From Azoarcus sp. (GTDB taxonomy: Bacteria; Pseudomonadota; Gammaproteobacteria; Burkholderiales; Rhodocyclaceae): 33,143 bases of DNA. Positions 364 through 3,064 of this stretch are shown here, piece by piece. The notes under the pieces are model-generated. The model worked only from the letters and a program-made list of their open reading frames with translations, was not told the DNA's origin and did not search any database. Positions within the stretch are counted from its first letter, which is position 1. Each line of letters starts with the position of its first letter. The stretch lies in contig JAIRXQ010000068.1 in the NCBI GenBank assembly GCA_031268195.1, positions 1 to 33,143 on the forward strand. The letters run 5' to 3'. Made by a program: the position numbers and the translations under genes.

Positions 364-1518
364 TTATTCTGCGAAACCTAATGATGCCAAATTGGCCTTG
401 ATCCGAGCTTCCAACTCCGCGCCTTCGGCGAACTGCGCTTCAAGTTGCGTGTCGAGCGAAATTTCTTTGCCCGATGTAGATTCGCGCCACTCACCCGACA
501 TGCCCCGCCCCGCCAGATTCTCCCGCTCCAGCATTGCCGCCAGTTCCTCCTCGGTTGGCAGCACGGTCTGGTATTTGGACGCGAACAACTGCTGGCTTTC
601 GCGCAACACCGAATATTTGACGACCGTCTCGTCTTTGTCCGCGCACAGCAAAATCCCCAAGGTGGGGTTGTCGTCCGGGCCGCGTTTCAACTCATCGAAC
701 ATGCGCACGTACATATCCATCTGCCCGATGTCCTGGTGTGTCAGCTTGGCCGTTTTCAGGTCGATGACCACAAAGCACTTCAGCAAGTAGTTATAGAACA
801 CCAGATCGACATAGAAATGCGAAGTCTCCGTGCTGATGCGCATCTGCCGCGCCACAAAGGAAAAACCCTTGCCCAGTTCCAGCAGGAATTTTTGCAGATC
901 GTTTATCAGCGCCTGTTCCAACACCGTTTCCTTGCCGGTCAAATCCTCCGGCACACCAAGAAATTCCAGCACATAAGGGTCTTTGATGAACCCGGACGAA
1001 TCGGGCGTGATCGGGGCCACTGAAAGCGCGTTCGACCGCCCGGATTGCGACGAAAGCAGACGGCGGTAATAGCCGCTCTGGATGTTGCGTTCCAAGAGGC
1101 GCACGCTCCAGTTCTGGGCGCTGGCTTCTTCGAGGTAGTAGCGCCGCTCTGGCTCACTATCCAACCGCATGATGAGGCGGATGTGTGACCAGGCCAGATT
1201 CCCTACACGATGTGTAGAGAATTGCCCGAAGGCCGGGAAGGTCAAGTAAAACTGCCGGAAATTCCAGAGGTTGGCGATCGAAAATCCTTTGCCGAAAGTC
1301 TCGCTCAAATAGCGGGACAGATTGACGATGAGCGCCTCGCCATAGCCCGCCCGCTCCTTGCCTCGTTGCTCCTCCTCGACGATGCGCCGCCCCATTTGCC
1401 AATAGGTTTCGACCATGACCGTGTTGACCGCCCGGTAAGCCTTGGCGCGGGCGGACTGGAGGATTTCCGTAATGTCAGCGAATAGCCGTTGCTCGCGGCG
1501 GGAAAGGTCATCTGCCAT
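364..1518 (-). CDS. DUF1016/YhcG-family PD-(D/E)XK nuclease with an HsdM-like C-terminal tail
   Basis: A 384-residue protein starting [10 protein letters not shown] at 1518; the open frame extends upstream, but that part lies over hsdM and is low-complexity Arg/Ser. The N-terminal domain (about 5-160) has the DUF1016_N look, with [12 protein letters not shown] and [13 protein letters not shown]. The C-terminal domain (about 175-320) is a PD-(D/E)XK fold with D238 in [10 protein letters not shown] and D253-x-K255 in [10 protein letters not shown], followed by [13 protein letters not shown]. Family members are common in defence islands and beside type I restriction genes; their exact role is not well settled. 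Residues 357-384 ([20 protein letters not shown] and 8 more) are nearly the same as the last 28 residues of HsdM next door, and the DNA is identical over 58 bp. The start overlaps the hsdM stop by 11 bp, suggesting translational coupling. Confidence 0.9.
387..444. repeat. 58-bp direct repeat, copy 1 (3' end of the DUF1016 gene)
   Basis: Identical over 58 bp to 1531-1588, offset 1144 bp. Both copies are read in the same frame and at the same distance (23 bp) from their gene's stop codon. The first bases past the repeat (445 versus 1589) differ, with a few more matches beyond. Confidence 0.97.
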
Positions 1519-3064
1519 AACCCAATCCTTCCAAATTGGCCTTGATCCGAGCTTCCAACTCCGCGCCTTCGGCGAACTGCGCTTCAAGCTGCGCAGTGAG
1601 CCGCGCCATCTTCTCCGTGAACGGCTCGCCGTCGTCCTCGGCTTTTTCCGCGCCAACGTAGCGGCCCGGCGTCAGCACGTGGCCATGCTTGCGGATTTCT
1701 TCCAGCGTGGCGGATTTGCAGAAGCCGGGGATGTCGGCATAGTCGCCCGCGTCGCCCTCGCCGCGCCAAGCGTGGTAGGCGGCGGCGATCCTGCCGATTT
1801 CTTCATCTGTGAGTTCGCGCCGTGTGCGATCCACCAACACGCCCATCTTGCGCGCATCGATGAACAGCGCCTCGCCGCGCCGATCGCGCAGTCTGGTGTT
1901 CTTCACCAATCCGTTACTGCGATCTTTCGCCAGTATCCACAGGCAGGCCGGAATCTGCGTGGAATAGAACAACTGGCCAGGCAGCGCGACCATACAGTCC
2001 ACTGCGCCCGCTTCTACCATCGCCTTGCGGATTTCGCCTTCGCTGTTCTGCGATGAACTCATCGAGCCGTTCGCCAACACCACGCCCGCGAAGCCGTGGG
2101 AGCCAAGGTGGTGGAAGATGTGCTGCAACCACGCATAGTTGGCATTGCCCACGGGCGGCGCGCCAAAGGTCCAGCGCAGGTCTTCGCGCAAGCGTTCGCC
2201 GCCCCAGTCGGAGATATTGAAGGGCGGATTGGCAAGGATGAAGTCGGCCCTGAGGTCGCGCAGTTCGTCTTTGTGGAAGCTGCCTTCGTTGTTCCACTTG
2301 ATGTCCGAGTCGATGCCGCGCACGGCGAGGTTCATCTTCGCCAGCCGCCAGGTGGTGTAGTTGCTTTCCTGCCCATAGATGGCAATGTCGCCGATGCGTC
2401 CGCCGTGTTCGGCGACGAATTTTTCGCTTTGCACGAACATGCCGCCGCTGCCGCAGCAGGGGTCATAGACACGACCGGTGTACGGCTCCAGCATTTCCAC
2501 CAGCGTGCGCACTACGCTGCGCGGCGTGTAGAACTCGCCGCCACGCTTGCCTTCCGCGCCCGCAAACTGGCTGAGGAAGTATTCATAGACGCGGCCCAGC
2601 ACGTCTTTCGATTTGTCGTTGCTCTCGTTCAGGGCAATGCCGGAGATCAGGTCAATCAACTCGCCCAGCATCACTTTGTTGAGCGCGGGGCGGGCGTAGT
2701 CTTTGGGCAGTACGCCTTTCAGGGAATTGTTGTCTTTCTCGATGGCGCGCATCGCATCGTCTACAGCCAAGCCGATGCTGCTTTGTTTGGCGCTGGCTTG
2801 CAGATACGACCAGCGCGCCTCCCTGGGCACCCAGAAGATGTTGTCGGCGAGGTATTCGTCTTTGTCTTCGGCAGCCGCCGCATCCTCGGCCAGCAGTTGC
2901 GCATGGCGCGCCTCGAAGGCGTCGGAGATGTATTTCAGGAAGATCAGGCCCAGCGCAACGTGTTTGTAGTCGCTGGGTTCCATGTTGCCGCGCAGCTTGT
3001 CAGCGGCTTTGAACAATTCTGCCTCGAAGCCGAGCTTGCCGCCGTTGTTGTCGTTTTGTGCCAT
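1508..3064 (-). CDS. hsdM: Type I restriction-modification system, adenine-N6 DNA methyltransferase subunit HsdM
   Basis: A 518-residue HsdM. It transfers a methyl group from S-adenosylmethionine to adenine within the site chosen by HsdS and works as part of an M2S or R2M2S complex in the cytoplasm. The N-terminal HsdM helical domain (about 10-140) begins [19 protein letters not shown]. It is followed by [18 protein letters not shown] (about 176-193), the SAM-binding motif DPCCGSGG (201-208) and the catalytic NPPF (279-282). The length is normal for the family. I start it at 3064 (MAQNDNNGG); the open frame continues to 3223, but that stretch covers the upstream HTH gene and does not look like HsdM. 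The C-terminus [20 protein letters not shown] (491-510) is repeated at the end of the next gene. hsdS and hsdR are not in the window and probably lie beyond position 1. Confidence 0.96.
1531..1588. repeat. 58-bp direct repeat, copy 2 (3' end of hsdM)
   Basis: Partner of 387-444. Recombination between the copies would remove 1144 bp, that is nearly all of the DUF1016 gene, and leave hsdM intact with the tail end SLGFAE in place of EGLGYGR. Confidence 0.97.

Follow-up and report, generated by a model that had tools for sequence, protein, structure and literature searches.

For the type I restriction-modification system EcoKI, translational coupling of hsdM and hsdS is stated in passages of PMC3510504, in which the type IB HsdS is also proposed to have absorbed the HsdM tail. 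Accessory genes embedded in restriction-modification operons are described as well, for example, prrC in EcoprrI (passages of PMC12707154). As far as the literature searched goes, how extra defense genes enter type I operons without disabling the genes behind them is unexplained. No report of duplicated hsdM ends appeared in the titles and abstract openings of the open-access literature among the matches listed, and a term search of PMC3874165 gave no match.

Here, we describe a type I operon in which the 3' end of hsdM occurs a second time within the following gene. The operon lies in a 33,143-nucleotide stretch of an Azoarcus sp. genome, which was analyzed as a whole and is called the window. 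In our estimate, the probability is about 0.75 that the repeat and the tail of the nuclease are the scar left when an accessory gene entered a type I operon at the 3' end of hsdM.

The window operon and its direct repeat

On the minus strand, the window carries hsdM, a DUF1016/YhcG nuclease gene, and a HEPN gene, in that order (Table 1). The hsdM product has the N6-methylase and HsdM_N domains of a type I restriction-modification methylase. The nuclease gene starts within the end of hsdM, with an 11-nt overlap (ATGGCAGATGA). Its product combines the DUF1016_N and YhcG_C domains with conserved D..DxK residues of the PDDEXK type; D238, D253, and K255, which we take to form this nuclease motif, were invariant in 27 sequences. 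No DUF1016 relative was found among solved structures (phmmer, E 0.01). Plasmid searches yielded relatives, and in one search no record reached 80% query coverage.

Contig C54 starts within HEPN. On contig C73 of the same genome, the order inward from the contig end is an MNT-like C-terminus, an ORF that is presumably transposase-like, hsdS, and hsdR, the first two being labeled by eye. If the operon continues across the contig gap, as we infer, its full order is likely hsdM-DUF1016-HEPN-MNT-transposase-like ORF-hsdS-hsdR. At the end of C73 (G000:C73, locus L334; reverse strand, about bases 190-920 from the contig end), ATGGCGGGTGA was seen on both sides of the transposase-like ORF, and the hsdS start segment is doubled around this insert between the end of the MNT-like gene and hsdS. 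Elsewhere in the window, 6789-7859 (minus strand) encodes a protein with glycine/aspartate-rich repeats (a 27-nt repeat family), RTX-like by eye. The region 30758-33141 (plus strand) encodes an outer-membrane secretion-partner-like protein and, behind it, the beginning of an exported protein that is cut by the window end, a pair assigned by eye to two-partner secretion.

By exact comparison, the two repeat copies are identical over 58 bp at an offset of 1144, and the 58-mer has no third occurrence on either strand of the whole window. With its flanks, the repeated segment amounts to 75 bp at 93% identity. Both copies are read in a common frame and are equally spaced from the stop triplets at 1508-1510 and 364-366, so the perfect, in-frame, equidistant repeat claimed in the preliminary description was confirmed. 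Against 40 shuffles, the repeat scored a z of 52 for DNA and 20 for protein. At the C-termini of HsdM and the DUF1016 protein, 20 consecutive residues are identical and 22 of the final 28 match, which makes the earlier wording "nearly identical" for all 28 slightly generous. The repeat was also said to bracket the nuclease gene; most of the gene is indeed enclosed, but the second copy lies within it and supplies its last codons.

Table 1. Features of the operon in the window
Feature	Coordinates	Strand	Evidence
hsdM, type I DNA adenine methyltransferase subunit, 518 aa, last codons LEGLGYGR*	1508..3064	-	Pfam N6_Mtase 8.5e-104, HsdM_N 4.5e-27; translation
DUF1016/YhcG PDDEXK nuclease gene, 384 aa	364..1518	-	Pfam YhcG_C 1.4e-57, DUF1016_N 2e-44; translation
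HEPN gene (nucleotidyltransferase substrate-binding family), truncated at contig end	1..351	-	Pfam NTase_sub_bind 6e-14
Direct repeat copy 1, native hsdM 3' end	1531..1588	-	Identical to 387-444
Direct repeat copy 2, last codons inside DUF1016 gene	387..444	-	Identical to 1531-1588
Degenerate hsdM-end "stop-start box" gagaatctggcggggcggggc, one base short	502..522	-	Compared with boxes preceding hsdS starts in other loci
Relic of hsdS 5' end (MSGEWREST...), ATG 501-499, lower limit approximate	460..501	-	Likeness to C73 hsdS start

A relic of an hsdS start, overlooked in the earlier reading of the locus, sits in the DUF1016 frame directly upstream of the second copy. Positions 481-520 matched the hsdS start region on C73 (MAGEWRETT) with 88% identity (E 1.1e-5). 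Because the stop-start box ahead of it is one base short, the relic is read in the DUF1016 frame; a base was probably lost there, judging from the intact boxes of other loci. The C-terminus of the DUF1016 protein is thus made up, in order, of its own end, an hsdM-like box, an hsdS start, and a full hsdM end, and it looks like a patchwork produced by recombination.

Distribution of the tail and recurrence of second hsdM ends

The tail is of the ordinary HsdM kind. Variants of QLxEQFAExAxLExxIKxNLxxLGYG form the C-terminus of many HsdM relatives, and an [LI]G[YFH] mark was found within the last 12 residues of 102 of 154 hsdM proteins; some relatives end otherwise, e.g., in ...NLARVKL. For DUF1016, the best 80 of 571 confirmed GTDB relatives were analyzed, and none of the 80 loci had an HsdM-like tail on the DUF1016 frame; in this sample, the tail is not a trait of the DUF1016/YhcG family. 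Most of these alignments end near residue 335, and a few of the genes are broken (e.g., L035 and L044). Among 100 related genomes, 35 had a DUF1016 match (the window's genome included), and no match extended beyond residue 352 outside the window's own genome. When the tail was searched in 21 genomes of the same genus, nine gave matches below E 1 and a strong match came only from the window's own genome; G009 matched residues 37-68 of the tail query (E 5.6e-4).

Two sets of loci were surveyed for second hsdM ends. Set 1 consisted of hsdM loci drawn from the order (80 of 85 places besides the window were fetched), to which four GTDB loci with hsdM near DUF1016 (L043, L067, L072, and L083) were added by choice; set 2 was drawn from the phylum and class (80 of 87 new places fetched). 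Of the resulting 165 loci, including the window, 6 that had no closed hsdM and 5 that were too short were excluded (11 in all), and the remaining 154 were scanned for a second copy of each locus's own hsdM end within 6 kb, judged against 40 shuffles. Thresholds were fixed after set 1 had been examined and before set 2 was.

A second hsdM end was present downstream in 19 of 65 loci that either had other genes between hsdM and hsdS (accessory type) or yielded no hsdS, versus 0 of 89 loci with hsdS directly behind hsdM (Fisher p 1.3e-8). In set 1, copies were found in 7/24 accessory, 3/4 no-hsdS (window included), and 0/52 direct loci. The corresponding figures in set 2 were 9/35, 0/2, and 0/37, i.e., 9/37 versus 0/37 (p 0.002). 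Three of the four loci added by choice were positive; without the four, the count was 16/61. Looser thresholds gave 21/65 versus 5/89 direct loci, and stricter ones gave 15 or 13 of 65 versus 0/89. No copy was detectable in 46 of the 65 loci. The direct locus L303, one of the five that passed the looser thresholds only, has a 21-codon ORF ending in KKEVLGYGG* before an hsdS-like start, about 250 nt after hsdM.

Two positive loci are atypical, and without them the count is 17. In L067 the match does not cover the coding end; it is limited to 27 bp at the hsdM stop and just beyond it. In L307 the insert begins like hsdS and matches N6_Mtase, so this locus may be a partial hsdM duplication. The insert, at +189..1070 after hsdM, shows an hsdS-like start (MDEWREVRLG) and then N6_Mtase, with an hsdM-end copy of 101 bp at 95% identity; the copy is possibly a young partial duplication.

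In the window, too, the second hsdM 3' end lies downstream of an accessory gene. Genes inserted at the surveyed loci include members of Fic, Schlafen/AlbA_2, RhuM, ORF6N, DUF1016, and Hypoth_ymh (Pfam). Of the two origins proposed in the preliminary description, the one in which the nuclease gene's arrival gave rise to a second hsdM 3' end is supported, since second ends accompany intervening genes of several unrelated families in 18 other loci (L067 and L307 being atypical). Duplication of a target by a mobile element was considered and rejected: no recombinase family was found by Pfam in 20 ORFs, a subset of those between hsdM and the copies. As a counterpoint, a transposase-like ORF precedes hsdS on C73.

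Gene order was also compared among five genomes of family f79, which have near-identical hsdM ends. Locus L274 was classed as direct. An ORF6N-like gene without a copy stands between hsdM and hsdS in L264 and L265; L287 has hsdM, a RhuM-like gene, a copy (90% over 91 bp), and an ORF6N-like gene; and in L266 RhuM and ORF6N are followed by the copy before hsdS. With genes labeled by Pfam in L266 and by eye in the others, this series is compatible with insertion at the hsdM end.

The repeat could instead come from assembly, with two loci of this metagenome-assembled genome joined through a common 58-mer. Misjoins typically leave a perfect repeat whose flanks differ sharply, the genome is in 87 contigs, and the contig starts inside the operon. 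However, the pattern recurs in other genomes, including L153 in a genome of 3 contigs, and the order hsdM-DUF1016-HEPN is also found in L168, which makes an artefact very unlikely. HEPN directly adjoins hsdM in L151, and L149 has the order hsdM-DUF1016-hsdS; together with that of L168, these orders speak in favor of insertion at the hsdM end.

The order in L151 bears on a further proposal, an on/off module in a mixed population, in which recombination between the 58-bp repeats removes the nuclease gene and leaves hsdM whole. The geometry permits this; deletion would yield an hsdM ending in ...LASLGFAE* directly before HEPN, similar to the order in L151. Yet a 58-bp repeat offers little length for efficient homologous recombination, no deleted form was seen, and the copies have diverged in many other loci, so that we regard such switching as highly improbable.

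Form of the copies and the start of the next gene

Boxes such as aaggagcttgggtATGGcgggtgagtggc link the hsdM end to the hsdS start in other loci. A search for ORFs of at least 200 codons that begin with M-x-x-[ED]-W yielded 34 rows, and an upstream frame ended 8 nt into the hsdS-like gene in 15 of 21 direct rows and in 9 of 13 accessory rows (L149, L153, L158, L160, L083, L067, L300, L301, and L304). The same search gave no row among 76 GTDB loci outside the hsdM set.

About half of the second hsdM ends meet the next gene in a similar way. The end of the copy is overlapped by the ATG of an ORF of at least 80 codons in 10 of 19 cases, whereas random placement within these loci would give 1.2. 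Counting any start from -16 to +18 nt included 15 of 19 and is a weak measure, with 7.3 expected by chance. No 80-codon ORF starts near the copy in four loci (L153, L212, L224, and L067). In the window, the end of the copy is not overlapped by a next-gene ATG; the box in front of HEPN has lost its start codon, and HEPN begins 12 nt past the copy's stop.

Short stop-to-stop frames of 23 to 59 codons hold 10 of the 19 copies (L043, L083, L208, L212, L266, L281, L287, L299, L301, and L307). The L281 copy is frameshifted near its end and still meets the hsdS start, and the L266 copy is interrupted. The copies of L160, L313, and L323 lie in frames of 83 to 127 codons; that of L158 has an ATG 22 codons ahead of its stop, within a far longer open frame. 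Copies fused to a long preceding frame were found in the window, in L153 (446 codons, Schlafen/AlbA_2 plus HATPase_c_4), and in L304 (190 codons, no Pfam match). In L224, the frame of the copy continues into an hsdR-like ORF. By eye, the order there is hsdM-DUF1016-decayed hsdM end, directly followed by the hsdR-like ORF, and hsdS was not found at that locus.

Differences between hsdM ends and their copies were synonymous in 34 of 83 cases, compared with an expected share of 0.22 (binomial p 8e-5). This count covers 11 copies; the gapped copies (window, L281, and L301), those with a DNA z below 7 (L083, L160, L212, and L299), and L067, in which no codons were comparable, were excluded. The balance varies by locus, from 4 to 0 in L266 to 1 to 12 in L158. 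Such an excess speaks against a purely DNA-level role of the copies. It may reflect an origin of the two ends in two working hsdM genes or retention of the peptide itself. The near halves of 16 copies were more similar than the far halves (mean identity, 0.70 versus 0.56), a weak and register-dependent difference.

A kept peptide would fit the other origin proposed in the preliminary description, in which the HsdM C-terminal helix is retained on the nuclease, binds HsdS (or HsdR), and recruits DUF1016 to the type I complex. In the EcoKI model, HsdS and the C-terminal helical tail of HsdM are next to each other (passages of PMC3510504), and the Schlafen/AlbA_2 accessory protein of L153 also bears an hsdM tail in frame. 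With the tail found on none of the 80 DUF1016 loci (best 80 of 571), 10 of 19 copies in free frames no longer than 59 codons (one of these copies frameshifted, L281, and one interrupted, L266), and 10 of 19 overlapping the next ATG, docking is not supported by our data, and we consider it quite unlikely. In a broader form, the HsdM tail would be a portable HsdS-binding peptide, occurring as free mini-proteins and as a tag on DUF1016 and Schlafen/AlbA_2 proteins; this is doubtful. If true, such a tail would tether accessory toxins and nucleases to the type I complex and let them sense its state.

Proposed insertion route and comparison with known systems

Insertion at the hsdM end may have proceeded as follows. 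In many type I operons, the next gene starts inside the last hsdM codons, so the hsdM end would serve as the translation-start and coupling segment of that gene. Entry of an accessory gene at this junction can produce a second hsdM end; one copy would close hsdM before the newcomer, and the displaced copy would stay ahead of the next gene and keep the stop-start overlap. In the window, the DUF1016 gene and the first hsdS codons would have been placed between hsdM and HEPN, and the loss of one base, together with a new junction, would have put the displaced hsdM end and the hsdS relic in a common frame with DUF1016. The window is best read as a fused, decayed case of hsdM-end duplication. The DUF1016 tail, resulting from fusion of the displaced hsdM end, would be a by-product. 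We infer the direction of these events and the type of donor. Coupling to the translation start of the next gene would be the reason that copies persist, and the route was probably recombination anchored in hsdM on one side with illegitimate joining on the other.

A second hsdM end with an intact stop-start overlap would be a simple answer to how extra genes enter these operons, as well as a signature for recognizing insertions, their order, and their borders. Caution is also needed with shared C-terminal tails in such operons and with short ORFs ahead of hsdS, either of which may be a scar or a coupling leader and not a protein domain.

Integrative elements enter the 3' ends of genes and restore them. 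Here, similarly, the end of the target gene is intact and a displaced copy stands at the far side; the difference is that no recombinase gene was seen in the DUF1016 insert of the window or, by Pfam, in the 20 ORFs from other loci. As in EcoprrI, where prrC is an additional gene within a type I operon, the nuclease gene is an addition, whereas an hsdM-end scar is unmentioned in the passages of PMC12707154. With the proposed origin of the type IB HsdS (passages of PMC3510504), the window shares the movement of DNA for the HsdM C-terminal tail, in duplicate, into a neighboring gene; the receiver is hsdS in that case and an unrelated nuclease or a short free ORF in ours. At the EcoKI junction (passages of PMC3510504), the hsdM stop likewise overlaps the start of the next gene and the HsdM C-terminal tail is encoded at the junction, whereas the window carries this segment twice, around an inserted accessory gene, with one of the copies fused to another protein.
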